A stretch of DNA of 64,000 nt from Paraescarpia echinospica (lineage: Eukaryota > Annelida > Polychaeta > Sabellida > Siboglinidae): NCBI GenBank assembly GCA_020002185.1, contig CM034534.1:32718049-32782048 (forward strand), written 5' to 3'. The translations under genes were made by a program, and so were the position numbers. Every line of letters starts with the position of its first letter. Position 1 is the first letter of the stretch. Positions 12,672-43,359 of the stretch are shown here, piece after piece. The notes beneath the pieces are model-generated. The model saw only the letters and a list, made by a program, of their open reading frames with translations. It was not told where the DNA came from and searched no databases.

Positions 12672-12767
12672 CCGTCCCAAACACATGCGTTTGTTCATCG
12701 CCATCAGTGCCGCGGCTGCTGCCTGGTGCTCGGCAAACTCAACGAACGCATATGGATCATTGCCGGG
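12672..12767 (-). CDS. TIA-1/TIAR-like RNA-binding protein, exon 4 (end of RRM1)
   Basis: A 96-bp phase-0 exon lies between a GTTTCAG acceptor and a GTGAGT donor. It encodes 32 residues including NDPYAFVEFAEH and AAAALMAMN. This is the RNP1 strand and following helix of the first RRM of TIA-1/TIAR; vertebrate TIA-1 proteins have NDPYCFVEF and AAAALAAMN at the same place. TIA-1 proteins bind U-rich RNA, act in alternative splicing, and in the cytoplasm nucleate stress granules. The RNP1 aromatic residues (Y, F) are kept. It reads on from exon 3 without frame change. Confidence 0.9.
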
Positions 12768-13921
12768 CTGAAACACGAACATGACACAGACGCATAGTTC
12801 CATATATTAAAGTCAGGCACGTCAGGTAGATAGGATTATTGTTTAATTTGTGCAAATTTGTCTGCCCAAAGTATGGAATGGATCAGTAAAATATATTGAA
12901 CGTTTTGGTCAGACCCCCATGGTAACAAACAAAATGACCACCACTTTGAGCTAATACTGGCAATTTTGGAAACACTGCCATTCTTTTTTGACCACATATA
13001 ATTATAATTCTTGCAAATCCATGTTCTGTATACATTCTATTGCAAAATGATGTTTCTTGATGTTTATTTTTAAATAATTTTTTTGGTAAAGTGTGAAGAA
13101 AAAAACTTGTTTTTTGGCAACAAATATGCTTATATCTTTCAAACTATTGATGATTTCAAAAAACTGTCTTATCATTTCACAGAGCAGAGTCTGCTGAATG
13201 CAACCCTGACAACCTTATTTGTCTATATTATAAAACAGTTCGTTTTCTGTTTGTACGTGCACCCACATATCCGTCAGTTCTGCATGTATCGGGCTTTCCA
13301 AAGGCTGTATGTGGAGTTCCAGCCGCGGAATTTAATGTTTTTCTACATTATCCTAAAGATAATTATGTCATCTACAAATATGTCACTGGATGTAAACAGA
13401 AATGTTGAATACTTATTGACATTTGAAAATCCTCAGAGTTTAACATGCACCAGGTTTACCTGTCGTTAGTCATGTCCGCATATGCTTACAAGTAGCACCC
13501 TCTTTCGCATTTCATATTTTTCCTACATTTATTAATGCGCGGTAGGCTGGAAACATTTGGGATGGGTTTGAGGTGTCTGATACATGACTGCCTTTTTCCC
13601 CGGGCAACACCAGGTAACTCGGCCAGTATAGCACCATTTCACCTGGGGTGTCTGGCCTTAAATAGTACAATATGGGTGGAATTATTAAAATGTTTGTATT
13701 TTTAACTTGAAGGTTACTCCCCAGTAGATCTCAGCATACAATGCATCAAATCCAGCATTTGCTTGTGTACAATATTGAACGAAATTGGTAGGTACAACAC
13801 AAAAGACAATATATTTATAGCATCGATACTTTTCATAAATGCAGTTCTTGCAATTTTATTTGGTCGACATATATCTTAAAAAGTAAATAGTTGATAAGAT
13901 ATGTTTATTTCAGTCCTGATT

Positions 13922-19884: not shown

Positions 19885-20255
19885 TGTTACGATATTGGAG
19901 TACATGGTTACAGGCCTGTACAATAGAGTAGCGCGACTATCTCTAATCTAATTAATGGTATGCGTATTGAGCCAGTTCCGGCAACACCACCAATAAATAT
20001 ACTCTAGTCGCTCGCGTATTCGCAGTGGCGATTTTGCAGAACGCACCAATATTTCAAAATCGGCCACCAGATTGGGGCGAAATTGAGGGGTGTCAGGTTT
20101 GGGTGGATTTTTCTGAAAAATGAGAAAATCGTAAGACAAATTTTGCAGGAAATGAAGAAAACGTTATAATGGCCGCCTATGTAAAATTTAAATGTGGTCT
20201 TACCCCAACTGTTCTGAGTTCGTACAAAGCTGGTTTGCGTACGCTAATTCAATCA
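19885..20255 (+). repeat. 5' LTR (371 bp)
   Basis: It matches the 3' LTR at both ends, with several substitutions, but carries about 200 bp of extra sequence between CACCACC and TGAGTTCGT. The extra block (about 20,000-20,200) contains no recognised element. LTRs are identical at insertion, so the extra block arose later, or the 3' LTR lost it. Confidence 0.9.
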
Positions 20256-20273
20256 TGGTGTCAGAAAGTTGTG
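20256..20273 (+). promoter_or_regulatory. Primer binding site of the gypsy element
   Basis: TGGTGTCAGAAAG immediately follows the 5' LTR. TGG at the LTR border is the complement of a tRNA 3' CCA end, and TGGTRTCAGA is a usual gypsy primer site. Confidence 0.8.
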
Positions 20274-21074
20274 TGAACGGGTGTTGGCGGAACTCGGTGG
20301 AACAATAACAACGGGTAACAAAGAGCTGACCGTCCCAGTTTGCGAGAGGGATCGGTATATCTTACCCGATCCACTTCCCGCCTCGGGAAATCTGCCAGTG
20401 CAATGGGGGCGATTCAAGAAGCAATTTCAGTACTTCTTGGACGCAAGTGAAAAGGCAGAGTCCACAGACATGGTAAAGATTGCCATGTTGTTGCGAACAG
20501 TTGGAGAGAAGGGAAACGATATGTTTGACAATTTCATCTTCCCGACAGCACAGCAGACGTTCAATTAAATCATAGACAAATTTGACTAATTCTGCTAACC
20601 ATGAAGCAGAACGGTCGCCCCATCGAGCAGTTCCTAACCATGAAGCAGAACGGTCGCCCCATCGAGCAGTTCCTAACCATGAAGCAGAACGGTCGCCCCA
20701 TCGAGCAGTTCCTAACCATGAAGCAGAACGGTCGCCCCATCGAGGAGTTCCTAACCATGAAGCAGAACGGTCGCCCCATCGAGGAGTTCCTAACCATGAA
20801 GCAGAACGGTCGCCCCATCGAGCAGTTCCTAACCATGAAGCAGAACGGTCGCCCCATCGAGGAGTTTCTGACGGCTCTAAACAAGCAAGTCAGGGACTGC
20901 GCATTTGTTGATTTAACCGACGACATGGTGCTGCACGCACTAACCCTCGGACACGACCAGGATAGAATGAGGCGCGGCGGTTGTTCGAAACGGACAGTCT
21001 CACGCTCAAGAAAGCAATACGCATGTGTCGACTGGCCGAAGATACGGAGGCCGAAATGCGAAAATTGCACATAA
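20269..21074 (+). pseudogene. gypsy gag with internal 39-bp amplification
   Basis: The N-terminal part (20,269-20,568) has a capsid-like stretch QWGRFKKQFQYFLDASE followed by a stop. The next part (20,601-21,074) contains seven near-perfect copies of a 13-residue segment, MKQNGRPIEQFLT, then ALNKQVRDCAFVDLTDDM. In related gag proteins this segment occurs once, as part of the conserved capsid helix around R/K-Q-x-x-G-E-x-I-D-x-F-V-T. A zinc knuckle (CGRCGTTHTETMPC) follows at about 21,177. Frame breaks at 20,568 and after 21,074 separate the parts. Confidence 0.85.
20601..20873 (+). repeat. 39-bp coding tandem repeat, 7 copies
   Basis: Seven head-to-tail 39-bp units keep the gag frame because 39 is a multiple of three. 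Units differ mainly by a CAG/GAG (Q/E) choice. Near-identity between units shows recent amplification compared with the decay of the rest of the element. Confidence 0.95.
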
Positions 21075-21179
21075 ATGAGGAGGTCAGTCCTGTTTACAAG
21101 CCTAAGCCCAAGAAGCATATAAAGACGTCAGGGGGGCGCACCTAGCGAAGGAAGGCGGATAGTAATTCCGATAAGACGT

Positions 21180-24097
21180 GTGGTAGATGTGGCACCACAC
21201 ACACAGAGACAATGCCCTGTATTTGGCAAAGAATGCTACAAGTATAAAAAGAAGAACAATTTCTCAAAATGTAGCAGAGTAAGAAAGGCCCAAAATCAAG
21301 TACATCTGATTGGAGAATACCATGACAGCAATTCGGACATTCTGCATATACAAGTAGACAATGTCGTTAGCAAGTTACTTGCGACAATCAGCGTCCAATC
21401 AGAGGGACATACCAAGTCTAGGCCCATTACATGTCAGCTTGACACAGCAGCTTTATGCAATGTGCAGAGTCTAAACGACTACCTGGGTGATCCACCCATA
21501 AGGCCAAGCAAGTCCACGCTGACGATGTATGACGGCACCGTAGTCCCATCGAAAGGTCGCTGCCACCTATCGGTATGCGATGAGGGTAGCACCGTGCCTC
21601 TTTTGTTTGAGGTGGTGGAAACCAAGCATGCAACGCTACTATCGATTGACACGTGCTTTCGACTAAAATTGCTCTCCGTGAACGAGCAGGTTCATTTGGT
21701 GAAAGATCGACAACATGCAAACGTGGAAGCCATGTTGGAGGGATACACGGACGTATTCTCGGGATTAGGATGTTTGCCGGGGGAGTACGACATAGTCATA
21801 GACAAGACGGTCCCATCTGTGCAAAACAGACCTCGCAGAGTCACATACGCACTCAAAGACGATCTGCAGAAGAAGAGCAAGAAGTGATTGTCAAGGTGGA
21901 TGTTCCAACTCCATGGATATCCAACTGCCTTGCCATTCGCAAAGCAAATGGCACGGTGCGGGTGTGCTTTGATCCTACCGATCTCAACAAAGCTATCCAA
22001 CGAAACCACTACCCGCTTCCAACAATTGAGGAGGTACTGCCAACTCTGAAGAACACGAAGATCTTTTCGCTAGTTGATGCGAAAGACGGCTTCCTTCAAG
22101 TCAAACTGTCAGAAGAGAGCAGCTACTTGACCACCTTTTGGAGCCCCTTTGGGAAATACAGGTGGCTCCGAATGCCATTTGGCCTCACCTCAAGTTCTGA
22201 AGAATTCCATCGTCGTTTGCAACAAGCATTGGATGGGTTAGACGGAATCTCAATTGTCGCCGACGACATACTGATCAACGGTCGGGGTGAAACGGAAGCA
22301 GAAGCTCGTCTAAATCATGACAAGAACCTGGAAAATTTGCTGCAACGCGCACGGGAGCAGAATGTGAAGCTAAACGAAGCAAAGATGAAGCTGCACATGA
22401 CAGAAATAAAGTACATCGGTCACGTGTTGACACCAGAAGGAGTGAAAGCTGATCCGGAGAAAGTGGTGGATATCAAGAAGATGTCCACACCAACCGACGT
22501 CGAACAAGTGCGCAGATTCCTTGGTTTCACCAACTATCTCACAAAGTTCATGCCAAACATAGCGGCTATCAGCGAACCACTGAGGCGGCTGGTACAGAAA
22601 GGCGCAGAATTCGAATGGGGATCTGCACAAGAAGATGCTTTCTAGGAGATCAAAGACATTGCAACCACTGAACAATCACTTGCCTACTATGATGTGACAA
22701 AGCCGGCGGTGGTGCAATGTGATGCTAGTACGCAAGGGCTAGGAGCGGCTCTGATACAAGAGGGCAAACCTGCAGCGTACATATATCATTCATTGACGAA
22801 ATGCGAACGAAATTATGCACCAATCGAACTTGAGTGTCTAGCAATTGTTTTCGCATGTCGAAAATTCGACCAATTAATCTGCGGGCTCTCAGATGTCACA
22901 ATCCACAGAGACCATAAACCTCTAGAGGCAATATTCCGAAAGTTGCTGCTAGATGCGCCAAAGCGTCTACAACGGATGATGCTCACAATGCAACCGTACA
23001 ACCTGAGAGTGGTGTATAAACCAGGCACAGAACAGCTAGTAGCAGATATGTTGTCACGAGCTACATCGTCACGTCGACCCGTCAAGGAGATATCGAAGGG
23101 ACAGATCTTCCAGTGTGCTATACGAGATGACATAGCAGAAGAGATCGATTCAGTTGATCCGCAAATGTACGTCAATGTCAGCGAGCCTCAACAAGCGTCA
23201 GCTGCTGATGAGACATTGCAACGATTGTTGACGACGGTTATGTCAGGCTGGCCGGAGCACAAGCACATGCTGTCACATGAGCTGAAACCGTACTGGACAT
23301 TTCGAGATGAAATGTCTGCGCATGACGTGATCCCGTACAAAGGGTAACGAATGATCATTCCGCAAGCCTGTCAGAGAGACCTGCTACAACGACTTCACAG
23401 CAGTCATCAAGGAATCGAAGCAACACTGCGAAGAGCACGAGATAGCATCTACTGGCCAGGAAAGATAAGCGACATCAAGCAGATGATCGACAGTTGTCAA
23501 GCGTGTGCCAAAGAAAGACCGTCCCAACAGAAAGAGACGCTAAGAAGCCACAACATTCCAACAAATCCATGGGGCAAAGATTGGGATCGACCTGTTTACG
23601 CATGCCAACGACACGTACATAATCCTGGTGGATTATTACTCAGATTTCTTTGAGTTCACAAGGCTTGTCATTCAGAGAGCGGAAACTACCATACAAGCAT
23701 ACAGTGTGCAATCAGATGGAGGACCACAGTTCGTGAGTGCAGAGTTCCAGGTGTTTACGAACACGCAGGAATTCAAACAATCCAACGGAAAGGCGGAAGC
23801 AGCAGTAAAGATCGAAAAAATCTGCTGAAGAAATCGAAAGATCCGATGAGAGCACTGCTAGAATGGCGCAACACTCCCACCACAGCACTCAACTGGAGTC
23901 CGGTACAACGAATTATGCAGCGACGCACAAGAGCGGCAGTGCCACAAACCGAGCATCTGATAAGACCAGTCGTACCGAACGCACCTCACACGATGAGACC
24001 CAAGACGATGAAACAGAAAGTGAGCCAGCATTACAACAACCGAAATGCTCACGACTTAACCTCTGTCAGAAAAGGAACACCTGTCTTCGTGCAATAG
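21180..24097 (+). pseudogene. gypsy pol: protease, RT, RNase H, integrase (broken)
   Basis: Protease region at about 21,420-21,660 with QLDTAA in place of the usual D-T/S-G-A. RT at 21,890-22,640 with FSLVDAKDGFLQVKL, LRMPFGLTSS and catalytic VADDILI. RNase H at 22,680-23,070 with VQCDASTQGLGAALIQ and IHRDHKPLE. Integrase zinc region at 23,380-23,520 (H-x3-H ... C-x2-C), core remnants with a shortened SDGGPQFVSAEF block, and a C-terminal YNN-x-H region near 24,040. Breaks: frameshift at about 21,885, TAG at 22,643, TAA at 23,345, frameshifts near 23,640 and 23,830, plus small in-core deletions. It resembles the K02A2.6-like gypsy branch. Confidence 0.92.
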
Positions 24098-24428
24098 TTG
24101 AAGAAATATCATCCAATCAAATGGTCACAGATAAATGCAGTGACCGGTCGTACATGCAGATTGAACTGGAGGCAGAGAAGGAAGACACGCCGATAGTGGA
24201 GAATACCATCGAATCGCGGAATGCGGAAGTGCGTGACCCGCCAGCGGTGCTCAGCACACCAAAGCCACTGACTTCGCCGAAGAGCCCCAGAACAATAAGA
24301 GTAATTTGGACTCGGTGGTAAAGATCGCAGTCCTAGGAGGATCACAAGCTGGTAACCTCTGACCCTATAGCAAGAGTTAGAGTATGTTACATTATTTAGG
24401 TTACATATTGTTTAGTTAAAAAGGGAGA

Positions 24429-28149: not shown

Positions 28150-28777
28150 TTAAAGGGAATAAAAACATATATTGCCCGAATTCATGTTATATTACATCCT
28201 GCTATATATTTCCATGTCCACCAAGCCAACAAAATCTGAAAAATTCAATGAAATAGAAATTCCACATTTTATGGTATGCATCCGGACATTTTCGAATATG
28301 CATATTTTTGGCGCGCTTTTCGGGATGCCGAGATGTGACGTCACTTATGACTCAAACTCGCATCAGGCCGACCCTTTCCATGCATTCAGAGCATGTTTAC
28401 AAGCATAGCTTTTGGGTCGAAACTAGCGTCAGAACGAGTTATTGTGCAATATTCCGACGTAATACAAACACTAGTCATCATAGAGGAACAAACATTTATC
28501 TTACGGTTCCACATGAATCGAATTTTATTCAAAACAACGAATGCGAATGGGCCTACAAGTCGACTAGGTTTCGCCGAGCTTGGGCTCGTTTTCAGAATAA
28601 TTATATCGAATGCAACCAACGGGAGATAATCTACACCAATAAACATACATAGCAAACATATATTGTATCCAGCTACATAAAGTAACGTGTATAATATAAT
28701 AATATCACTAGAATATCGATATATGACGGAGTTGTACAATTTATCATAACAACTTAAATCAGTCAGAGTTTCCGTAG
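28150..28777. repeat. Outer left arm, unique segment
   Basis: Mirrored at 42,360-43,359, where the right copy additionally carries a LINE tail. Contains overlapping open frames on both strands (28,308-28,652 plus and 28,386-28,739 minus) that survive in both arms but show no family resemblance. An inverted gene pair would not explain frames open on both strands, so coding is doubtful. Confidence 0.7.
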
Positions 28778-28858
28778 GTCCCGCTACCTCAGTGGGTAGG
28801 CGCGTTGGTTACTTGTCATTTATTTTACAATCGGGCGACGCCGGTTCAATCCTGACAG
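28778..28858 (+). other. tRNA-like sequence (pol III A and B boxes), left arm
   Basis: An A-box-like TACCTCAGTGGGTAGG (28,785) lies about 43 bases before a B-box-like GGTTCAATCC (28,843), flanked by GTCCCGC and CTGACAG. D- and T-arm positions fit a tRNA, but acceptor pairing is poor and the T stem has a mismatch. This is a tRNA pseudogene or a tRNA-derived SINE head rather than a functional tRNA. Confidence 0.6.
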
Positions 28859-28897
28859 CAGGCAAACCTTTGATTTTCTATACACTTTTTTGTTTAT

Positions 28898-29258
28898 GTT
28901 TTCACGAAGTAATATAAACAAAATCACTTTATACTATAATGCACTGTTTGTAAATAATTTTTATTTTTGTAATAACTATTTATTCGCCACAAAAATGAAA
29001 ATATGGTTATTATATAACGATGTTTCTAAATTTTATTTATCCAAACAAATATAATGTAATGGATATATAATTTATTAATTGTAAATATACTGTACGGTAA
29101 CATATTGTAATTATATCTGTGAAAACAGATTGAGATCTGTCTGGATAAATACAATTTAGAAACATCGTTATATATAATGACCATATTTTCATTTTTGTGG
29201 CGAATAAATAATTACTACAAAAATAAAAAATATTTACAAACAGTGCATTATAGTAAGT
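28898..29258. repeat. Nested inverted repeat in left arm
   Basis: About 130-145-bp halves (28,898-29,040 and 29,141-29,258) are inverted copies around a central AT-rich spacer; both contain TATTCGCCACAAAAATGAAA in opposite orientation. The right arm carries the same structure at about 41,855-42,235. Confidence 0.85.
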
Positions 29259-29299
29259 AGTAAAGGAGGTTAAGTACCGCGCAGGGTGTCGCGCCGCGG

Positions 29300-29390
29300 A
29301 GCAAGAGCAAAGTACCCGGATGTAGGTCAAGGTCAAATACCCGGATGTAGGTCAAGGTCAAGTACCCGGATGTAGGTCAGGTCACGTGGC
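29300..29390. promoter_or_regulatory. Three copies of a nuclear-receptor-like half-site, left arm
   Basis: A 25-bp unit containing CCGGATGTAGGTCAAGGTCA is repeated about three times. TCAAGGTCA is the extended half-site bound by ERR and NR5A-type nuclear receptors in animals. Mirrored at 41,555-41,630. Confidence 0.45.
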
Positions 29391-30360
29391 GCCCCCTACC
29401 GGATTTTTTCGGAACTAGAATGGCACGCACCTAGCGGATTTTTTCGGAACTAAAATATTCCCGCCAGAAATATAACCGCGCCCCCTGTCGGATAGTTGGT
29501 GAACTAATTATTTCCCGCCAGGTCACGTGTCGCCCCCTACCGGAATTTTTCGGAACTAGAATGGCACGCCACCTAGCGGATTTTTTTGGAACTAAAATAT
29601 TCCCGACAAAACTATAAAAGCGCCACCTAGCGGACAGCTGGTGAACTAAATATTTCCCGCCAAAACTTAAATAGCGCCACCTAGCGGATAGTTGGTTAAC
29701 TAATCTAGAACAGCGCCCCTGACGGATAGTTGGTGAATTAAAATAGCCCCCCCCTGGCGGATAGTTGGTGAACTAAATCAAGGTCACATCACCTAACGGA
29801 TTTTTCCGGAACTAAAATATTTCCCGGCAAAACTTGAATAGCTCCCCCTGGCGGATAGTTGGTGAACTAAAATTATTTCCCGCCAAAACTATAAAAGCGC
29901 CCCCTGGCGGATAGTTGTTGAACTAATTATTTCCCGCCAAAACCAAAATAGCGCCCCCTGACGGATAGTTGGTTAACTAAAATATTCTAATTATTTCCCG
30001 CCAAAACTAGATAGCGCCACCTAGCGGAATTTTTCGCTACTAAAATATTTCCCGCCAAAACTGAAAAAGCGCCCCTGTCGGATAGCTGGTGAATTAATTA
30101 ATTCCCGCCAAAACCAAAGTAGCGCCCCTGGCGGATATTTGGTGAATTAAAATAGCTCCCCTGGTGGATAGTTGATTAACTAAAACAGTGCCCCCTATCG
30201 GAATTTGTCGGTACTAGTTATACAAGTGGTGTCATATTGTGGACAAGTTGTAAATTAAATATTCTAGTACTGCAAATATTCGTGTCTCTTGCACGCTTGC
30301 GTGCAATAGAGCCCCCTGACGGGTACATCACGAACTACAAACATCATCCCCTAGTGGAAA
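29380..30360. repeat. Degenerate array of about 20 CTCF-like units, left arm
   Basis: A loose unit of about 50-60 bp combines GCGCCCCCTGGCGGATAGTT with GTGAACTAAAATATTTCCC and CGCCAAAACT. The core GCGCC(C/A)CCT(A/G)GCGG, read on the minus strand as CCGCYAGGKGGCGC, closely matches the animal CTCF consensus. About 20 cores occur, nearly all in one orientation. Mirrored in the right arm in the opposite orientation. Confidence 0.85.
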
Positions 30361-30559
30361 AGTGAGCAAACCACATATGAGTACTGCAAATATTTGTGTC
30401 TCTTGTTTTTTCTCGTCCATAAACACCTGGTGGATATATAAGCATCAACTGAAAGCACCCCTGTTAGATAAGTGGTGAACTAAATAACTACTCAGCAGTC
30501 CGCGCTTGTGTACATTCTACTCAGCAGTCCGTGCTTTTGAATTTTCTACAATATGTGAT

Positions 30560-30700
30560 CTTTCGGCACGCCCACGTGACCTTTATGTTCTGTTCCATAA
30601 TCTTTTCGGCACGCCCACGTGATCTTTATGGTCTGTGGACTGGTTATAAAAGGCCTGCGTCTGCTTTTGTGGTCATTATAGCTTACATCTTGAAAATGGA
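30560..30700 (+). promoter_or_regulatory. TATA promoter candidate pointing to the palindrome centre, left arm
   Basis: Two copies of GGCACGCCCACGTGA (30,562 and 30,607) carrying a CACGTG E-box precede TTATAAAAGG at 30,644. Downstream within 50 bp is an ATG opening a 24-codon frame (30,697). The spacing of boxes is promoter-like. Mirrored at about 40,240-40,380, so the two would transcribe towards each other. Confidence 0.45.
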
Positions 30701-30714
30701 AAAGAATAGGGAAT

Positions 30715-30985
30715 TTTATCGCAAAGGTATCCGACCCCTTTTTGGGTTTTTATCCCATGTTAAAGCATAGGGAATTTTCACCCCATGTTAAAGTATAGGA
30801 GCTATTGTCGCAAAGGTATCCGACCACTTTTTGGGTTTTTATCCCATGTTAAAGCATAGGGAATTTTCACCCCATGTTAAAGTATAGGAGTTATTGTCGC
30901 AAAGGTATCCGACCACTTTTCGAATTTTTTTATCCCATGTTAAAGAATAGGCCATTTTTATTGCAAAGGTATGCGACCACTTTTT
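30715..30985. repeat. Short tandem repeat after the promoter candidate
   Basis: Repeated segments GCAAAGGTATCCGACCACTT and CCCATGTTAAAG alternate three to four times. Mirrored at 39,955-40,225. Confidence 0.8.
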
Positions 30986-31029
30986 GAATAAAATAAAATA
31001 TACCAAACAGCATTTGAATATGTCACACA

Positions 31030-32228
31030 CGAGATTGCTTGACCCGTAGGCCGAGGCTTCGCCAGGGGATCGAACCCTTATTTGGTTGACAATGGCATGT
31101 CGAAAATGTGGTGTTATAATAAGGCGTAATTTATATAATAAAAGGATTATAAATTCAACGGAGATGGTTTTGTCTGAAGTAATGTATACGAAATGTAGAC
31201 TACATATAGGACTATGTTATATCAGGGCCTAAAGCCTCGTTTTTTTCGAACAGAGCGGCCATCTTGAAATTATACGTTTGGTGGCTGTTACAAAACCGTA
31301 CTCGAGACGTGTCTGGGCATGTTTGTTTGTTTGTTTGTTGATGTCATCAAACTGCTACGCACAGTAATTTTGTACCCGAGGGTGACTTGGTTAATCAGAT
31401 AGCGCTTTGGTTAGCCATTGTTTTGAGCTTTCGTGCTTGAATATAATCTCATCATTTGATGTTATGGTCATTGACGTTATAGTGAGTGAAAAATCTCCCT
31501 GTTAACCGGTATAAACTGGTATCAATCAAGCCTCAAGGGTCGGTGTATTGGCCCCGTGTTAAGCCATAGGGAAGTTATACGAACTTATCTGTTAAAACAT
31601 TCAAACTACCAGCTATCTGTGTAATATTTTGGTCAAACTGTTTGTCATTTGCACTTACCAACGGTCACAGTTGAAAGTCCGCGTACAAACCGGATCCAAA
31701 CTGGTGTCAAACTGTTTTGAACTGATATATCCTATCCAAGGCTCATCCGTATTTCATCTGTGCCTAGAGATCACCAATACTGTTTCAGCATTTTATCATG
31801 CTGGTGTTCTTAACCTATACGTGTGTACGTATGTACGTATGTACGTAGGTGCATAATCGTGTTCAACATCATTATTAAATAAATAAACGCGCTATGTGCG
31901 ATGCGCAATGTCGACTCGATCACCTTGATGCCAAAGATCATAATTATATCAATACAAGACGGCGCAGTGCTCGCTATCTACATTGTTCGAGGAAAGTGAA
32001 GCGTCATGTTACAACAGTACAGGTACATAATAACCTCCCAGATAAGATGTACCAGTATCTATATAGTTTACCGTATTAAGGTTCAAGTGTACCCAGGACC
32101 ATTAGAACGTTTTTATCCTTTTTCGTACTATAGTATTTAAATTCGTGCTTCTTCGGTAAAACCTTCGAAACCAACTTCTGTCGTAAAACAAATAACCTGG
32201 TATGGGTAATCGAAAATGAACTCATAGA

Positions 32229-32230
<2 letters not shown>
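31030..32230. other. Unique part of left arm
   Basis: No gene recognised. A minus-strand B-box-like GGGTTCGATCCCC at 31,065-31,077 has no convincing A box. Also contains (GTTT)n at about 31,320 and a TACG-rich run at about 31,825. Mirrored at 38,710-39,910. Confidence 0.5.

Positions 32231-32231
<1 letters not shown>

Positions 32232-32270
<39 letters not shown>
32232..32270. repeat. (TA)n microsatellite, left arm
   Basis: About 19 TA units, mirrored at 38,671-38,708. Confidence 0.97.
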
Positions 32271-32272
<2 letters not shown>

Positions 32273-32389
32273 TACATCAAGAGACGAGACTGTGACCGTG
32301 ATGTGTGATCTATGACCGAGATGTGGCACGAGACTACGGATGCCACATCACACGATAAAGTACTCAGACCAACTAGTGGTGCGAACGAA

Positions 32390-33560
32390 ACACAACAGTT
32401 TGACCAACACACATCACGAATCGAACTATAGACACGAGTCGGACAACCGAAACACTATAGTTTGACCAACACACGGCACGAATCGGACTCAGACCAACTA
32501 GTTGTACAAACGAAACACTATGCTTTGACCAACACGGGTCACGAATTGAACTCAGATCAACTAGTTGGACAAACGAAACACTATGCTTTGACCAACACGT
32601 GTCACGAATTGAACTCAGACCAAATAGTTGGACAAACGAAACACTATTCTTTGACCAACACATGTCACAAATTGAACTCAGATCAACTAGTCACACAAAC
32701 GAAACACTATGCTTTGACCAACACGCTGAACGAATCGAACATTGAACTCAGACCAACTAGTTGTGCAAACGAAACACTGCTTTGACCAACACGTGTCACG
32801 AATTGAACTCAGACCAACTAGTTGTGCAAACGAAACAGAAACTTAACCGATTACGCTGCACAAATTGAACTCAGACCAACTAGTTGTACAAACGAAACAC
32901 TATGCTTTGACCAACACGTGTCACGAATTGGACTTAGATCAACTAGTTGGACAAACGAAACACTAAGCTTTGACCAACACGTGTCACGAAAACGAAACAC
33001 TATGCTTTGACCAACACGTGTCATGAATTGAACTTAGATCAACTAGACACATCACACGAGACTATGTCCGAGATATGTCACGAGACTTTGGATGACACGT
33101 CACACGAGAGTACCGACGAGCCAAGAGACGAGACTATGACCGAGATATGTCACGAGACTACGGATGACACATCACACGAGACTATGGCCGAGATATTTCA
33201 CGAGTCTTCGGATCACGCGAGACTACGGATGACACATCACACAAGAGTACCGACGAGACACGAGTTATACAAACGAAACACTATGCTTTGACCAACACGT
33301 GTCACGAATTGAACTCAGACCAACTACGAATTGAACTCAGACCAACTAGTTGTGCAAACGAAACAGAAACTTAACCGATTACGCTGCACAAATTGAACTC
33401 AGACCAACTAGTTGTACAAACGAAACACTATGCTTTGACCAACACGTGTCACGAATTGGACTTAGATCAACTAGTTGGACAAACGAAACACTATGCTTTG
33501 ACCAACACGTGTCACGAAAACGAAACACTATGCTTTGACCAACACGTATCACGAATTGAA
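32390..33560. repeat. 63-bp tandem array, left arm
   Basis: Units contain CTATGCTTTGACCAACACGT and AACTCAGACCAACTAGTTGT with period 63 bp and moderate divergence. The array is split at about 33,050-33,260 by copies of the 72-bp unit. Mirrored at about 37,370-38,560. The frame stays open because the period is a multiple of three, but on both strands. Confidence 0.92.
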
Positions 33561-33574
33561 CTTAGATCAACTAG

Positions 33575-34035
33575 ACACATCACACGAGACTATGACCGAG
33601 ATATGGCATGAGACTTCGGATGACACATCACACGAGAGTACCGACGAGACAAGAGACGAGACTATGACCGAGATATGTCACGAGACTACGGATGACACAC
33701 CACACGAGACTTCGGATGACACGTCACACGAGAGTACCGACGAGACAAGAGACGAGACTATGACCGAGATATGTCACGAGACTACGGATGACACACCACA
33801 CGAGACTTCGGATGACACGTCACACGAGAGTACCGACGAGACAAGAGACGAGACTATGACCGAGATACGTCACGAGACTACGGATGACACGTCACACGAG
33901 AGTACCGACGAGACAAGAGACGAGACTATGACCGAGATACGGCACGAGACTACGGATGTCACCTCACACGAGAGTACCGACGAGACAAGAGACGAGATTA
34001 TGACCAAGATATGTCACGAGACTACGGATGGTACA
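33575..34035. repeat. 72-bp tandem array, left arm
   Basis: Units carry CACGAGACTACGGATGACAC and GAGAGTACCGACGAGACAAG with period near 72 bp. A smaller cluster is at 33,050-33,260. Mirrored at about 36,905-37,370. A 169-codon open frame (33,535-34,044) is a by-product of the period and of absent stops in the unit. Confidence 0.92.
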
Positions 34036-34039
34036 TCAG

Positions 34040-34275
34040 AATAGACCGGATATCACGTGAGATTCCACCACAAAGATGGAATTCCACCACAATAGACGGG
34101 TTATCACGTGAGATTCCACCACAAAGATGGAATTCAACCACAATAGAAGGTTATCACGTGAGATTCCACCACAAAGATGGAATTCCACCACAATAGACGG
34201 GTTATCACGTGAGATTCCACCAAAAAGATGGAATTCCACCACAATAGACGGGTTATCGCGTGAGATTCCACCACA
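34040..34275. repeat. 51-bp tandem array, left arm, cut by the gap
   Basis: Units GATTCCACCACAAAGATGGA + ATTCCACCACAATAGACGGG + TTATCACGTGA. The last base before the gap pairs with 36,670 in the right arm. Confidence 0.9.
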
Positions 34276-35275
34276 NNNNNNNNNNNNNNNNNNNNNNNNN
34301 NNNNNNNNNNNNNNNNNNNNNNNNNNNNNNNNNNNNNNNNNNNNNNNNNNNNNNNNNNNNNNNNNNNNNNNNNNNNNNNNNNNNNNNNNNNNNNNNNNNN
34401 NNNNNNNNNNNNNNNNNNNNNNNNNNNNNNNNNNNNNNNNNNNNNNNNNNNNNNNNNNNNNNNNNNNNNNNNNNNNNNNNNNNNNNNNNNNNNNNNNNNN
34501 NNNNNNNNNNNNNNNNNNNNNNNNNNNNNNNNNNNNNNNNNNNNNNNNNNNNNNNNNNNNNNNNNNNNNNNNNNNNNNNNNNNNNNNNNNNNNNNNNNNN
34601 NNNNNNNNNNNNNNNNNNNNNNNNNNNNNNNNNNNNNNNNNNNNNNNNNNNNNNNNNNNNNNNNNNNNNNNNNNNNNNNNNNNNNNNNNNNNNNNNNNNN
34701 NNNNNNNNNNNNNNNNNNNNNNNNNNNNNNNNNNNNNNNNNNNNNNNNNNNNNNNNNNNNNNNNNNNNNNNNNNNNNNNNNNNNNNNNNNNNNNNNNNNN
34801 NNNNNNNNNNNNNNNNNNNNNNNNNNNNNNNNNNNNNNNNNNNNNNNNNNNNNNNNNNNNNNNNNNNNNNNNNNNNNNNNNNNNNNNNNNNNNNNNNNNN
34901 NNNNNNNNNNNNNNNNNNNNNNNNNNNNNNNNNNNNNNNNNNNNNNNNNNNNNNNNNNNNNNNNNNNNNNNNNNNNNNNNNNNNNNNNNNNNNNNNNNNN
35001 NNNNNNNNNNNNNNNNNNNNNNNNNNNNNNNNNNNNNNNNNNNNNNNNNNNNNNNNNNNNNNNNNNNNNNNNNNNNNNNNNNNNNNNNNNNNNNNNNNNN
35101 NNNNNNNNNNNNNNNNNNNNNNNNNNNNNNNNNNNNNNNNNNNNNNNNNNNNNNNNNNNNNNNNNNNNNNNNNNNNNNNNNNNNNNNNNNNNNNNNNNNN
35201 NNNNNNNNNNNNNNNNNNNNNNNNNNNNNNNNNNNNNNNNNNNNNNNNNNNNNNNNNNNNNNNNNNNNNNNNNNN
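34276..35275. other. Assembly gap, exactly 1000 N
   Basis: A round-number placeholder. The flanking bases (34,275 and 35,276) are mirror partners of 36,670 and 35,633, so the hidden DNA is expected to mirror 35,634-36,669 (1036 bp). Any open frame spanning it is meaningless. Confidence 0.98.
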
Positions 35276-35633
35276 CGGTACGACGTCACTTCCGGTGTAG
35301 CGCCCTTAGCGGATAATCGGAGTACTACGTCACATGGTGGCGCCATCTAGCGGTTAAAAAAATATAATTAGTTTAGCTAGAGAAAAAAAGTTGGGGTTAA
35401 CCTCGCGAAAATTTTAACAACAACCACTAAAGTGGTTGTATAAATTTTCTGAAAATTTTCTGTTTTTGTCCCAGAGGGACAAAAACATTAAATTTTCGCG
35501 AGGTTAACCCCAACTTTTTTTCTCTAGCTAACCTAATTATATATATATTTTTTAACCGCTAGATGGCGCCACCATGTGACGTAGTACTCCGATTATCCGC
35601 TAGGGGCGCTACACCGGAAGTGACGTCGTACCG
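35276..35633. repeat. T-shaped nested hairpin at the palindrome centre
   Basis: Outer stem: 35,276-35,418 pairs with 35,488-35,633. Inside it sit two perfect small hairpins: a 9-bp stem with AA loop (35,420-35,439, ACAACCACT/AGTGGTTGT) and a 12-bp stem with AGA loop (35,461-35,487, TGTTTTTGTCCC/GGGACAAAAACA). Single strands could fold into a T or cloverleaf form. Two CTCF-like cores lie in the outer stem. Confidence 0.9.
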
Positions 35634-35990
35634 GAAGTTACTTGACTCATGGCAGCCTCTACTAGGGACGACACGTCGGAAGTGACGTCACACCGGAAGT
35701 TACTTGACTGTCATGGCGGCCTCTACGCTTCCGGTATTCTCGGAAGTGTGTCAACGAATAGATATCTATCATGGCCGGTAGTTGGCGTTATTCTGAGTAG
35801 TTACACTGCTATCCGTTGGGGTCATCAGATGTCGCCTGTCTCATGAACGTGCACAGTTTTTGTGTTAAGGGAAGTCACGTGATGTACGTTCGGTCTGATT
35901 GATTATGCAAATGAGCTCACGCCGAAAACTAGTGTATATACCGTGCTTCCGACGATTCTGGTCTTTCCTTTTTCGACTCTCGAGAAGGTC
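35590..35990 (+). promoter_or_regulatory. ETS/CRE-rich, octamer and TATA promoter-like block
   Basis: Repeated CCGGAAGT (ETS) next to TGACGTC(A) (CRE) and CATGGC(A/G)GCC (YY1-like) at 35,610-35,740 in two or three copies. Then an octamer ATGCAAAT at 35,905-35,912 (CTCATTTGCATAATC on the other strand, like histone H2B promoters) and TATATA at 35,935-35,940. A strong splice donor AAG|GTATGT stands at 36,162/36,163. No long coding frame follows. Motif order and spacing suggest a pol II promoter directed rightwards. Confidence 0.5.
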
Positions 35991-36281
35991 GTATCGTATC
36001 TGGTCGCTCTCACTATTTGAAAATATGGAATTGTTACGTTGAAAAGATGGCTGCTTCATATACATATTATGTTTTCCATTAAAAGAAGCGATACTTCATG
36101 CGAGTCCTATGGTCGCCTCGTTGGACGTGAATCCGACCAAATGATCATCTCTTGACATGAAGGTATGTGATGTTTGGCACCTCATTGAATGAAGTCCTGT
36201 CAGGTGGTTGTCCTTACATGTTATTGACATAGTCGTTTTCGATCGTAGCAGTTTTCAAATTCGCTTGCTATGGTCGTGTGT

Positions 36282-36668
36282 TAAAAAGTTCCGAGTCCTA
36301 CCGACACTAAAAAGTTCCGAGTACTACCGATACTAAAAAGTTCCGAGTACTACCGACACTAAAAAGTTCCGAGTACTACCGACACTAAAAAGTTCCGAGT
36401 ACTAAAAAGTCGACACTAAAAAGTTCCGAGTACTACCGACACTAAAAAGTTCCGAGTACTACCGACACTAAAAAGTTCCGAGTACTACCGACACTAAAAA
36501 GTTCCGAGTACTACCGACACTAAAAAGTTCCGAGTACTACCGACACTAAAAAGTTCCGAGTACTACCGACACTAAAAAGTTCCGAGTACTAACGACACTA
36601 AAAAGTTCCGAGTACTACCGACACTAAAAAGTTCCGAGTACTACCGACACTAAAAAGTTCCGAGTACT
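36282..36668. repeat. 26-bp tandem array, about 15 copies
   Basis: Units contain ACTAAAAAGTTCCGAGTACT plus ACCGAC. One partial unit occurs near 36,400. Only one copy of the array is visible; its mirror should be inside the N gap. Confidence 0.95.
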
Positions 36669-38668
36669 ATGTGGTGGAATCTCACGCGATAACCCGTCTA
36701 TTGTGGTGGAATTCCATCTTTTTGGTGGAATCTCACGTGATAACCCGTCTATTGTGGTGGAATTCCATCTTTGTGGTGGAATCTCACGTGATAACCTTCT
36801 ATTGTGGTTGAATTCCATCTTTGTGGTGGAATCTCACGTGATAACCCGTCTATTGTGGTGGAATTCCATCTTTGTGGTGGAATCTCACGTGATATCCGGT
36901 CTATTCTGATGTACCATCCGTAGTCTCGTGACATATCTTGGTCATAATCTCGTCTCTTGTCTCGTCGGTACTCTCGTGTGAGGTGACATCCGTAGTCTCG
37001 TGCCGTATCTCGGTCATAGTCTCGTCTCTTGTCTCGTCGGTACTCTCGTGTGACGTGTCATCCGTAGTCTCGTGACGTATCTCGGTCATAGTCTCGTCTC
37101 TTGTCTCGTCGGTACTCTCGTGTGACGTGTCATCCGAAGTCTCGTGTGGTGTGTCATCCGTAGTCTCGTGACATATCTCGGTCATAGTCTCGTCTCTTGT
37201 CTCGTCGGTACTCTCGTGTGACGTGTCATCCGAAGTCTCGTGTGGTGTGTCATCCGTAGTCTCGTGACATATCTCGGTCATAGTCTCGTCTCTTGTCTCG
37301 TCGGTACTCTCGTGTGACGTGTCATCCGAAGTCTCGTGCCATATCTCGGTCATAGTCTCGTGTGATGTGTCTAGTTGATCTAAGTTCAATTCGTGACACG
37401 TGTTGGTCAAAGCATAGTGTTTCGTTTTCGTGACACGTGTTGGTCAAAGCTTAGTGTTTCGTTTGTCCAACTAGTTGGTCTAAGTCCAATTCGTGACACG
37501 TGTTGGTCAAAGCATAGTGTTTCGTTTGTACAACTAGTTGGTCTGAGTTCAATTTGTGCAGCGTAATCGGTTAAGTTTCTGTTTCGTTTGCACAACTAGT
37601 TGGTCTGAGTTCAATTCGTAGTTGGTCTGAGTTCAATTCGTGACACGTGTTGGTCAAAGCATAGTGTTTCGTTTGTATAACTCGTGTCTCGTCGGTACTC
37701 TTGTGTGATGTGTCATCCGTAGTCTCGCGTGATCCGAAGTCTCGTGAAATATCTCGGCCATAGTCTCGTGTGATGTGTCATCCGTAGTCTCGTGACATAT
37801 CTCGGTCATAGTCTCGTCTCTTGTCTCGTCGGTACTCTCGTGTGAGTCATCCGAAGTGTGACATATCTCGGACATAGTCTCGTGTGATGTGTCTAGTTGA
37901 TCTAAGTTCAATTCATGACACGTGTTGGTCAAAGCATAGTGTTTCGTTTTCGTGACACGTGTTGGTCAAAGCATAGTGTTTCGTTTGTCCAACTAGTTGA
38001 TCTAAGTCCAATTCGTGACACGTGTTGGTCAAAGCATAGTGTTTCGTTTGTACAACTAGTTGGTCTGAGTTCAATTTGTGCAGCGTAATCGGTTAAGTTT
38101 CTGTTTCGTTTGCACAACTAGTTGGTCTGAGTTCAATTCGTGACACGTGTTGGTCAAAGCATAGTGTTTCGTTTGCACAACTAGTTGGTCTGAGTTCAAT
38201 GTTCGATTCGTTCAGCGTGTTGGTCAAAGCATAGTGTTTCGTTTGTGTGACTAGTTGATCTGAGTTCAATTTGTGACATGTGTTGGTCAAAGAATAGTGT
38301 TTCGTTTGTCCAACTATTTGGTCTGAGTTCAATTCGTGACACGTGTTGGTCAAAGCATAGTGTTTCGTTTGTCCAACTAGTTGATCTGAGTTCAATTCGT
38401 GACACGTGTTGGTCAAAGCATAGTGTTTCGTTTGTACAACTAGTTGGTCTGAGTCCGATTCGTGCCGTGTGTTGGTCAAACTATAGTGTTTCGGTTGTCC
38501 GACTCGTGTCTATAGTTCGATTCGTGATGTGTGTTGGTCAAACTGTTGTGTTTCGTTCGCACCACTAGTTGGTCTGAGTACTTTATCGTGTGATGTGGCA
38601 TCCGTAGTCTCGTGCCACATCTCGGTCATAGATCACACATCACGGTCACAGTCTCGTCTCTTGATGTA

Positions 38669-38712
<44 letters not shown>

Positions 38713-40239
38713 TCTATGAGTTCATTTTCGATTACCCATACCAGGTTATTTGTTTTACGACAGAAGTTGGTTTCGAAGGTTTTACCGAAGAAGCACGAAT
38801 TTAAATACTATAGTACGAAAAAGGATAAAAACGTTCTAATGGTCCTGGGTACACTTGAACCTTAATACGGTAAACTATATAGATACTGGTACATCTTATC
38901 TGGGAGGTTATTATGTACCTGTACTGTTGTAACATGACGCTTCACTTTCCTCGAACAATGTAGATAGCGAGCACTGCGCCGTCTTGTATTGATATAATTA
39001 TGATCTTTGGCATCAAGGTGATCGAGTCGACATTGCGCATCGCACATAGCGCGTTTATTTATTTAATAATGATGTTGAACACGATTATGCACCTACGTAC
39101 ATACGTACATACGTACACACGTATAGGTTAAGAACACCAGCATGATAAAATGCTGAAACAGTATTGGTGATCTCTAGGCACAGATGAAATACGGATGAGC
39201 CTTGGATAGGATATATCAGTTCAAAACAGTTTGACACCAGTTTGGATCCGGTTTGTACGCGGACTTTCAACTGTGACCGTTGGTAAGTGCAAATGACAAA
39301 CAGTTTGACCAAAATATTACACAGATAGCTGGTAGTTTGAATGTTTTAACAGATAAGTTCGTATAACTTCCCTATGGCTTAACACGGGGCCAATACACCG
39401 ACCCTTGAGGCTTGATTGATACCAGTTTATACCGGTTAACAGGGAGATTTTTCACTCACTATAACGTCAATGACCATAACATCAAATGATGAGATTATAT
39501 TCAAGCACGAAAGCTCAAAACAATGGCTAACCAAAGCGCTATCTGATTAACCAAGTCACCCTCGGGTACAAAATTACTGTGCGTAGCAGTTTGATGACAT
39601 CAACAAACAAACAAACAAACATGCCCAGACACGTCTCGAGTACGGTTTTGTAACAGCCACCAAACGTATAATTTCAAGATGGCCGCTCTGTTCGAAAAAA
39701 CGAGGCTTTAGGCCCTGATATAACATAGTCCTATATGTAGTCTACATTTCGTATACATTACTTCAGACAAAACCATCTCCGTTGAATTTATAATCCTTTT
39801 ATTATATAAATTACGCCTTATTATAACACCACATTTTCGACATGCCATTGTCAACCAAATAAGGGTTCGATCCCCTGGCGAAGCCTCGGCCTACGGGTCA
39901 AGCAATCTCGTGTGTGACATATTCAAATGCTGTTTGGTATATTTTATTTTATTCAAAAAGTGGTCGCATACCTTTGCAATAAAAATGGCCTATTCTTTAA
40001 CATGGGATAAAAAATTCGAAAAGTGGTCGGATACCTTTGCGACAATAACTCCTATACTTTAACATGGGGTGAAAATTCCCTATGCTTTAACATGGGATAA
40101 AAACCCAAAAAGTGGTCGGATACCTTTGCGACAATAGCTCCTATACTTTAACATGGGGTGAAAATTCCCTATGCTTTAACATGGGATAAAAACCCAAAAA
40201 GGGGTCGGATACCTTTGCGATAAAATTCCCTATTCTTTT

Positions 40240-40380
40240 CCATTTTCAAGATGTAAGCTATAATGACCACAAAAGCAGACGCAGGCCTTTTATAACCAGT
40301 CCACAGACCATAAAGATCACGTGGGCGTGCCGAAAAGATTATGGAACAGAACATAAAGGTCACGTGGGCGTGCCGAAAGA
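40240..40380 (-). promoter_or_regulatory. TATA promoter candidate, right arm
   Basis: Mirror copy of the left-arm candidate: two TCACGTGGGCGTGCC boxes and CCTTTTATAA near 40,290, oriented leftwards to the palindrome centre. A few substitutions against the left copy (such as near 40,383). Confidence 0.45.
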
Positions 40381-40589
40381 TCACGGATTGTAGAAAATTC
40401 AAAAGCACGGACTGCTGAGTAGAATGTACACAAGCGCGGACTGCTGAGTAGTTATTTAGTTCACCACTTATCTAACAGGGGTGCTTTCAGTTGATGCTTA
40501 TATATCCACCAGGTGTTTATGGACGAGAAAAAACAAGAGACACAAATATTTGCAGTACTCATATGTGGTTTGCTCACTTTTCCACTAGG

Positions 40590-41560
40590 GGATGATGTTT
40601 GTAGTTCGTGATGTACCCGTCAGGGGGCTCTATTGCACGCAAGCGTGCAAGAGACACGAATATTTGCAGTACTAGAATATTTAATTTACAACTTGTCCAC
40701 AATATGACACCACTTGTATAACTAGTACCGACAAATTCCGATAGGGGGCACTGTTTTAGTTAATCAACTATCCACCAGGGGAGCTATTTTAATTCACCAA
40801 ATATCCGCCAGGGGCGCTACTTTGGTTTTGGCGGGAATTAATTAATTCACCAGCTATCCGACAGGGGCGCTTTTTCAGTTTTGGCGGGAAATATTTTAGT
40901 AGCGAAAAATTCCGCTAGGTGGCGCTATCTAGTTTTGGCGGGAAATAATTAGAATATTTTAGTTAACCAACTATCCGTCAGGGGGCGCTATTTTGGTTTT
41001 GGCGGGAAATAATTAGTTCAACAACTATCCGCCAGGGGGCGCTTTTATAGTTTTGGCGGGAAATAATTTTAGTTCATCAACTATCCGCCAGGGGGAGCTA
41101 TTCAAGTTTTGCCGGGAAATATTTTAGTTCCGGAAAAATCCGTTAGGTGATGTGACCTTGATTTAGTTCACCAACTATCCGCCAGGGGGGGGGGCTATTT
41201 TAATTCACCAACTATCCGTCAGGGGCGCTGTTCTAGATTAGTTAACCAACTATCCGCTAGGTGGCGCTATTTAAGTTTTGGCGGGAAATATTTAGTTCAC
41301 CAGCTGTCCGCTAGGTGGCGCTTTTATAGTTTTTGCGTGAATATTTTAGTTCCAAAAAATCCGCTAGGTGGCGTGCCATTCTAGTTCCGAAAAATTCCGG
41401 TAGGGGGCGACACGTGACCTGGCGGGAAATAATTAGTTCACCAACTATCCGACAGGGGGCGCGGTTATATTTTTGGCGGGAATATTTTAGTTCCGAAAAA
41501 ATCCGCTGGGTGCGTGCCATTCTAGTTCCGAAAAAATCCGGTAGGGGGCGCCACGTGACC
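40590..41560. repeat. Degenerate array of about 20 CTCF-like units, right arm
   Basis: Mirror of 29,380-30,360. On the plus strand the core reads CCGCCAGGGGGCGCTA or CCGCTAGGTGGCGCT, with GTTTTGGCGGGAAATAATT between cores. Orientation is opposite to the left array. Confidence 0.85.
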
Positions 41561-41771
41561 TGACCTACATCCGGGTACTTGACCTTGACCTACATCCGGG
41601 TATTTGACCTTGACCTACATCCGGGTACTTTGCTCTTGCTCCGCGGCGCGACACCCTGCGCGGTACTTAACCTCCTTTACTACTATAGTATAAAATGATT
41701 TTGTTTATATTATTTCGTGAAAACATAAACAAAAAAAGTGTAAAGAAAATCAAAGGTTTGCATGCTGTCAG

Positions 41772-41852
41772 GTCCCGCTACCTCAGTAGGTAGGCGCGTT
41801 GGTTACTTGTCATTTATTTTACAATCGGGCGACGCCGGTTCAATCCTGACAG
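41772..41852 (+). other. Extra tRNA-like copy, right arm only
   Basis: Same A and B boxes as the left-arm copy (CCTCAGTAGGTAGG ... GGTTCAATCC). It is absent from the corresponding place in the left arm (near 29,255), so one arm gained or lost about 190 bp after duplication. Confidence 0.6.
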
Positions 41853-42276
41853 CGAAGTAATATAAACAAAATCATTTTATACTATAATGCACTGTTTGTA
41901 AATATTTTTTATTTTTGTAGTAATTATTTATTCGCCACAAAAATGAAAATATGGTCATTATATATAACGATGTTTCTAAATTGTATTTATCCAGACAGAT
42001 CTCAATCTGTTTTCACAGATATAATTACAATATGTTACCGTACAGTATATTTACAATTAATAAATTATATATCCATTACATTATATTTGTTTGGATAAAT
42101 AAAATTTAGAAACATCGTTATATAATGACCATATTTCCATTTTTGTGGCGAATAAATAGTTATTACAAAAATAAAAATTATTTACAAACAGTGCATTATA
42201 GTATAAAGTGATTTTGTTTATATTACTTCGTGAAAACATAAACAAAAAAGTGTATAGAAAATCAAAGGTTTGCCTG

Positions 42277-42357
42277 CTGTCAGGATTGAACCGGCGTCGC
42301 CCGATTGTAAAATAAATGACAAGTAACCAACGCGCCTACCCACTGAGGTAGCGGGAC
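42277..42357 (-). other. tRNA-like sequence, right arm mirror copy
   Basis: Mirror of 28,778-28,858 with identical box sequences. Together with the extra copy at 41,772 it brackets the nested inverted repeat of the right arm. Confidence 0.6.
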
Positions 42358-42944
42358 CTACGGAACTCTGACTGATTTAAGTTGTTATGATAAATTGTAC
42401 AACTCCGTCATATATCGATATTCTAGTGATATTATTATATTATACACGTTATTTTATGTAGCTGGATACAATATATGTTTGCTATGTATGTTTATTGGTG
42501 TAGATTATCTCCCGTTGGTTGCATTCGATATATTTATTCTGAAAACGAGCCCAAGCTCGGCGAAACCTAGTCGACTTGTAGGCCCATTCGTATTCGTTGT
42601 TTTGAATAAAATTCGATTCATGTGGAACCGTAAGATAAATGTTTGTTCCTCTAGGATGACTAGTGTTTGTATTACGTCGGAATATTGCACAATAACTCGT
42701 TCTGACGCTAGTTTCGACCCAAAAGCTATGCTTGTAAACATGCTCTGAATGCATGGAAAGGGTCGGCCTGATGCGAGTTTGAGTCATAAGTGACGTCACA
42801 TCTCGGCATCCCGAAAAGCGCGCCAAAAATATGCATATTCGAAAATGTCCGGATGCACACCATAAAATGTGGAATTTCTAATTCATTGATTTTTATTTTT
42901 TTTTTGGCTTGGTGGACATGGAAATAGATAGCAGGATGTAATAT

Positions 42945-43319
42945 AATAATAATAATAATGTATTTATTTCAGACAATCATGATGTTCCATATATACAAAT
43001 ACATCAATAACAGTATGTAAATAATATAAAAATACATAGATAAGAACAATGTTTAAAAATTTTATAAATCCCGGACCCACTGGTGCCGCAGTTTCGAAGT
43101 ACAATACACGTCGCTAGTTTTAATGCTATAAATAATGGGATTCAAAGACATGTCAATCCTATTCATTAAGCTAAAAATAGCCTTTCTGATTACACATTTA
43201 CCCGAGCTGACATTAGCTGTAGCAAACATGTGGCTAGCGCTACATCTCATGGGCAAATTGTTCAATATCCTGAAAGAGTTGTTATATGCAACAATGAATT
43301 GATGAAAATTAACTTTTTA
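42945..43319 (-). mobile_element. 5'-truncated LINE tail inserted in the right arm only
   Basis: About 375 bp without counterpart in the left arm, where the flanking bases are contiguous. TATAA occurs on both sides, as a short target duplication would. On the minus strand it encodes the end of a LINE ORF2 (LPMRCSASHMFA ... AIFSLMNRI; 43,062-43,265), followed by a 3' UTR ending CTGAAATAAATACATTATTA with an (ATT)n tail. It is typical of jockey/CR1/L2-like 3' ends. Confidence 0.85.
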
Positions 43320-43359
43320 TAACATGAATTCGAGCAATATATGTTTTTATTCCCTTTAA

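Follow-up and report, generated by a model that had tools for sequence, protein, structure and literature searches.

What kind of element gives rise to a palindrome of some 15 kb in an animal genome, and what keeps its two halves alike? The question is raised by a 64,000-nucleotide stretch of the 1.08-Gb genome of the annelid Paraescarpia echinospica (contig C4, positions 32718049-32782048), which is referred to here as the window and in whose own numbering positions are given unless a contig is named. The original prediction, made for positions 28150-43359, described a single giant foldback element with inverted arms of about 7 kb, a T-shaped core and TTAA at both ends. Comparison with related sequences elsewhere in the genome indicates that the feature is a nested pair, in which a 12.4-kb palindromic element lies inside a small palindromic TTAA transposon. 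The predicted giant palindromic mobile element does exist, but it has (AGT)2 ends of its own and 6-bp duplications rather than TTAA.

Within the limits of the assembly, the palindrome at this locus is real. When the window is compared with itself, positions 29248-34275 match 41693-36670 in inverted order with 99.3% identity over 5,033 columns, and an outer inverted match joins 28187-29255 to 42946-41880 at 98.5%. Within the inner element, the left arm (29256-34275, plus strand) stops exactly at a 1000-N assembly gap (34276-35275), while its mirror, the right arm, occupies 36670-41684 on the minus strand; judged from the symmetry, the sequence missing at the gap would be roughly 1 kb from the left half of the centre. 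The predicted arms of about 7 kb stand as symmetry but not as single units, since the ends of a second element lie within them. Nor is the mirroring complete, as about 370 bp (42947-43317, minus strand) are present in the right arm only. This insert has a (TTA)n tail and, judged by eye, looks like the truncated end of a non-LTR retrotransposon (LTR, long terminal repeat). The 1-kb sequences outside the two outer ends gave no match to each other, in agreement with the unrelated flanks that had been described.

The TTAA borders were correctly located, but they bound a host transposon and not the giant element. TTAAAGGGAATAAAAACATA begins at 28150 (TTAA at 28150-28153) and its inverted copy finishes at 43359, so that the host copy in the window has the same end on both sides. 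Its left part (28150-29255, plus strand) comprises the first 1,106 bp, the last six of which are a copy of ATAGTA; its right part (41691-43359, minus strand) continues the left part for 82 bp and then mirrors positions 1106-38 and 42-1. With up to two mismatches, the 25-bp TTAA terminus has 1,816 + 1,714 matches in the genome, 3,530 altogether, and the reversed control has none. Ten genome copies that match the first kilobase of the host, each taken with 20 kb, share just the first 1.1 kb with the window, besides their own repeats and short repeat matches. Six of them (L011, L015, L019, L021, L025 and L027) are 1.9-kb TTAA-ended elements with an internal palindrome of 90.9-93.2% identity, and the remaining four are rearranged variants. 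No 15-kb palindrome occurs among these ten relatives, and the giant element is present in none. Because the relatives lack the giant element and the terminus is abundant genome-wide, the TTAA ends are attributed to a common transposon.

Between the two host parts lies the giant palindromic element itself (29256-41684), which is 12,429 bp long as assembled, including the 1000 N, and has the ends AGTAGTAAAGGAGG and CCTCCTTTACTACT. Comparison of the loci that share its core gave AGTAGTAAAGGAGGTTAAGTACCGCGC as their common outer edge, and in the window this edge is found at 29256 and 41684. The element begins with AGTAGT and ends with ACTACT, and a perfect 6-bp duplication, ATAGTA, stands on either side (29250-29255 and 41685-41690, plus strand). 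When the element and one ATAGTA are removed, the host sequence that is left corresponds to an uninterrupted site in all ten host relatives. The site is uninterrupted at both positions in seven relatives and at the mirror position only in L009, L013 and L017; it is present twice per host copy because the host element is itself palindromic. An empty site had been proposed as a check on the prediction, and one was found for the inner element, but in paralogous copies only. These paralogous sites indicate that the giant element inserted near the middle of the TTAA host after the host had formed.

Judged by its termini, the inner element belongs to a dispersed palindromic family. With up to two mismatches, its 27-bp terminus has 405 matches in the genome (190 + 215; reversed controls, 0), so that the suggested check for a second copy succeeds for the inner element. 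Pairing counts cover the 100 matches listed, among which 26 neighbouring end pairs lie less than 20 kb apart: 23 face each other at distances of 6.2-17.6 kb, one is ++, two are -- and none is -+. Flanks were taken for 20 pairs (19 of the listed neighbours and one non-neighbouring pair), and an exact 6-bp duplication was found in 15 of them, as against 0 of 380 mispaired flank combinations. Three further pairs, those of the window, of L033/L034 (CACCTG) and of L031/L032/L035 (TATATA, within an AT-rich repeat), bring the total to 18 of 23 pairs flanked by exact duplications, which have no fixed sequence. The family is mobile.

It is also palindromic beyond the window. The copy at C4:1991407-2001711 is a gap-free palindrome with 91.4% identity over 10,519 columns, and arm identity differs among copies (99.3%, 98.0% and 91.4%). 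At L031/L032, the left contig runs on past the centre to reach the gap, after which the right contig repeats the centre; gap sizes and lengths there are therefore not literal. To the right of the gap at L029/L030, the sequence has only short matches to the left arm, as in a truncated element or a wrong join. The continuity of a flank with itself, which had been named as a sign of artefact, is absent at the window but present at C5:74095974-74105056 and C12:5798285-5811691 (L062, L063, L080 and L081), where the flanks are exact reverse complements over 40 bp; these two loci are likely to be assembly fold-back errors at palindromic elements. The 23-bp terminus has no exact match in viral_contigs.

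The centre of the element is a conserved hairpin. As the prediction of a T-shaped core implied, the right contig opens with a branched hairpin (35276-35633) that carries side hairpins at its tip and folds, with DNA parameters, at -192.5 kcal/mol (z -36.7). The core search scored 40 of 1,471 candidates, and 16 copies were aligned with the window; of these copies, one contains N, another is truncated where its contig stops, and in two more the left outer stem is unrelated. The predicted consensus has 137 pairs, 14 of which show at least one two-sided change. At the gathering score, Rfam has no match in the window.

Outward from the hairpin lie a promoter-like stretch (35634-36281, plus strand), with what we take to be ETS, CRE and YY1-like motifs, mostly pointing outward, and a 26-bp tandem array (36282-36669, plus strand). 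Tandem arrays fill the arms, recalling foldback elements, as had been noticed at the outset. The window also has 22 motifs that are presumably CTCF-like, all within the element, where chance would give 0.07. Ten lie in the left arm, all on the minus strand (29389-30027), and ten in the mirror array of the right arm, all on the plus strand (40912-41551), so that both sets face outward; the core has one each way. Outward CTCF-like, ETS-like and YY1-like sites also occur in other elements, although L032, whose contig crosses the centre, has between one and three that point the other way. The CTCF-like arrays may act as boundary sites.

The family carries genes in both arms. Going inward along each arm of L033/L034, a SERTA-motif frame, of a family linked to cell-cycle control, is followed by a 246-aa zinc-finger frame. 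The SERTA motif of L034 scores 30.4 bits (curated cut-off 25), and that of L033 is split across two frames. A genome search with a query that includes some leader scored 150 of 1,848 SERTA candidates, 126 of which are stop-free. Among the matches listed, 31 neighbouring SERTA pairs lie within 20 kb, 26 of them inward-facing, three ++, two -- and none -+. By eye, the order SERTA, zinc finger, zinc finger, SERTA, with both genes present in either arm, can be read at no fewer than nine further loci. A scored SERTA match on the same strand lies 0.6-1.4 kb inside at least 14 of the listed termini.

The corresponding search with the zinc-finger frame scored 150 of 5,426 candidates (5,428 in a repeat search). 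Most of the matches listed are limited to about residues 100-246 and have identities of roughly 80-86%; the C-terminal part is therefore conserved and the first part variable. For this C-terminal domain, the ratio of nonsynonymous to synonymous substitution rates (dN/dS) has a median of 0.26 and a range of 0.10-0.70 among ten stop-free sequences, comprising eight copies hand-chosen from the 150 scored and both arms of one element, a set that leans toward intact copies; the median uses the 39 of 45 pairs with dS above 0.05. Such ratios indicate that the domain is under purifying selection. The protein-collection search returned no relatives of the zinc-finger or the SERTA open reading frame, the closest solved structures to the zinc-finger frame are ordinary C2H2 fingers, and the best E in a PHROGs search was 0.024. 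A separate locus, C5:55127829-55146660, repeats the zinc-finger frame six times in direct orientation on a single strand, at spacings of about 3.3-5 kb, a tandem amplification of an arm gene.

In the window copy, both coding regions have been lost. The SERTA leader alone is kept, with a remnant of the start, at 30468-30707 (plus strand) and in mirror copy at 40232-40471 (minus strand), and the window copy is therefore a gene-less derivative. Four scanned frames of the palindrome (proteins 5-8) matched no Pfam family, which is consistent with the predicted lack of a transposase.

Taken as a whole, we regard as probable a reading in which the nested pair contains a member of a palindromic family with Maverick-type ends, replicated and integrated in trans and made symmetrical again through its hairpin. 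By analogy with Mavericks, the giant element probably uses Maverick-type machinery. It would have no integrase or polymerase of its own and would depend on Maverick-type proteins acting in trans. Replication would be protein-primed, with jumping back on the AGT repeat, the role that is thought to be served by the repeated end of Mavericks, according to a published survey (PMC8097293). Integration by the same trans-supplied proteins would leave the 6-bp duplication. Symmetry would be re-established by a strand that turns back on itself at the T-shaped hairpin and serves as its own template, a snap-back route that can be likened to that of symmetric defective adenovirus genomes. Two observations bear on this last step. 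The two arms in the window agree at every position of a 954-bp stretch in which another element differs by 4%, and in the 640-bp core flank of L033/L034, 12 private changes are common to both halves, as against 6 found in one half only. These patterns perhaps reflect snap-back copying at the hairpin.

Several points weigh against this reading. The core-flank halves of L029/L030 and L031/L032 share no private changes, leaving one of three elements concerted, and the difference between the two halves of L029/L030 is 0.94%, as against 0.31-0.47% between its left half and another element. Since these two elements lack shared private changes, gene conversion after insertion may be what keeps the halves alike. 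In the hairpin alignment, covariation contributes a slightly unfavourable term (+2.65 kcal/mol); the alignment therefore shows symmetry, not RNA function. The centre of the window copy is incompletely assembled. Five of the 23 end pairs are without an exact duplication: two are flanked by mirror images, one has its 12-bp end in duplicate and then matching 6 bp, one (C2:62128940/62140792, non-neighbours) has a single mismatch and one adjoins core-like sequence. The four elements read for genes (the window, L029/L030, L031/L032 and L033/L034), for which some frames were scanned against Pfam, showed no gene for a polymerase, integrase, ATPase, protease or capsid protein. No autonomous element with the same ends was identified, and the three weak matches to the PF03175 polymerase family in the genome lie near none of the 100 listed ends. 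A search with PF00770 gave no match, nor did its controls.

One of these polymerase-like sequences is L100 (C13:32566248-32567247), where a fragment of a 1,475-aa open frame has a weak DNA_pol_B_2 match (25.3 against a cut-off of 25.8). It is possibly a fragment of a Polinton-type polymerase, and it has no match among solved structures.

The alternative that survives best is a cut-and-paste transposon of another superfamily, which makes 6-bp duplications, resembles AGTAGT by chance and has foldback-type arms kept alike by gene conversion. It would explain why no Maverick genes are seen inside the element, and the copy-to-copy spread of arm identity (99.3%, 98.0% and 91.4%) is what decay or conversion after insertion would give. 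The non-concerted core halves of two elements out of three point the same way, as does the internal palindrome of the TTAA elements of the same genome. However, both the trinucleotide-repeat end and the length of the duplication fit the published Maverick signature, and no transposase was seen in the elements read. On balance, we consider this explanation unlikely.

Far less probable is an assembly artefact, in which one end was mirrored at a fold-back point or two contigs were joined at the gap. The left arm does run inward into the 1000-N gap, two of the three other copies taken whole have similar gaps, one of them with its centre present twice, and two other loci have exact mirror-image flanks over 40 bp. 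Yet the flanks in the window are unrelated and its duplication is perfect, the insert occupies one arm only, the gap-free copy is palindromic, and facing ends and facing genes are the rule among the matches listed.

A 15-kb TTAA foldback moved as a single unit by a TTAA-specific transposase, for which TTAA at both outer ends and the inverted TTAA-type termini would speak, was ruled out as extremely improbable: a common small element supplies the 1.1-kb outer pieces as its ends, the giant element is absent from 10 of 10 copies of that element, each with the uninterrupted site, and the inner ends and 6-bp duplication mark a later insertion. Equally remote is a host regulatory or boundary sequence of divergent CTCF-like arrays round a central promoter, amplified and retained but not mobile, which would accommodate the outward-facing motifs and their same orientation in other elements but not the target-site duplications and gene cargo that indicate mobility.

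If the Maverick-type reading is correct, the family shows how protein-primed elements can yield palindromic satellites with regulatory cargo, and CTCF-like arrays and selected regulatory genes would have been spread through an animal genome. Snap-back at the T-shaped hairpin offers a testable route by which arms could be kept alike. A bolder and rather doubtful proposal is that the family constitutes a new class of mobile DNA in animals, a Maverick satellite that is palindromic throughout, has a hairpin at its centre, retains just the ends for integration and replication, and carries duplicate SERTA and zinc-finger genes and divergent CTCF-like arrays to perhaps two hundred sites. The palindromic family also explains why several loci show assembly gaps and mirror-image artefacts.

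Elsewhere, the window contains repeats and mobile elements of other kinds. It begins with a tandem array of a 65-bp unit (1-739; 11.4 copies, 98% matches) and finishes with a minisatellite of a 57-bp unit (62220-64000; about 31 copies) that reaches the window end. LTR-retrotransposon frames (RVT_1, RNase H) lie at 20248-24400, including a 39-bp tandem array (20595-20866) within a frame with a borderline gag match. On the minus strand are Tc1/mariner-type transposase frames (9359-10448), non-LTR retrotransposon frames with endonuclease and reverse transcriptase domains (57180-59738; a 736-aa frame) and an RRM exon (RRM_1; 12441-12806). The exon likely belongs to a host gene, and we take it to resemble TIA1/TIAR.

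Among known systems, Maverick-type elements are virus-like, protein-coding transposons, and Maverick/Polinton is, by its ends, the nearest known kind to the giant element. The vertebrate survey gives (AGT)2//(ACT)2 as the commonest end motif, with (AG)3//(CT)3 also found, 6-bp duplications, and intact elements of 12.7-24.6 kb with terminal inverted repeats of 46-1,447 bp (PMC8097293). The giant element shares the (AGT)2//(ACT)2 ends and the 6-bp duplications without fixed sequence, and its sizes overlap; in contrast, its inverted arms, of about 5-6.4 kb each, form the whole element, and its family has a central T-shaped hairpin and a cargo of SERTA and zinc-finger genes. Because ends and duplications agree while gene content and arm length do not, 'Maverick-type ends' is the appropriate description, and not 'a Maverick'. 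Judged by titles and the starts of abstracts, with subscription papers mostly uncovered, the literature searches turned up no palindromic or non-autonomous Maverick/Polinton, nor the fully palindromic, cargo-carrying form. Bidnaviridae are parvovirus-Polinton hybrids, and their end repeats are stated to form no parvovirus-like hairpins (PMC4061559).

The likeness to other systems is confined to particular features. With foldback elements (Drosophila FB, sea urchin TU and Galileo), the giant element shares long inverted arms filled with tandem repeats. Those elements have 7-9-bp duplications and family-specific ends, whereas the giant element has a 6-bp duplication, (AGT)2 ends, genes in both arms and a larger size. 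TTAA transposons of the piggyBac/Kolobok type have TTAA at both borders; here TTAA borders the host only, and the giant element has AGTAGT/ACTACT with 6-bp duplications. Symmetric defective adenovirus genomes of the SYREC type likewise combine one protein-primed end at both termini, foreign DNA between them and a giant palindrome, but the giant element belongs to a family that is integrated and dispersed through a genome of animal size. Finally, the T-shaped terminal hairpins of parvoviruses also have a stem with side hairpins at the tip, while the hairpin of the giant element is central and about 360 bp long.

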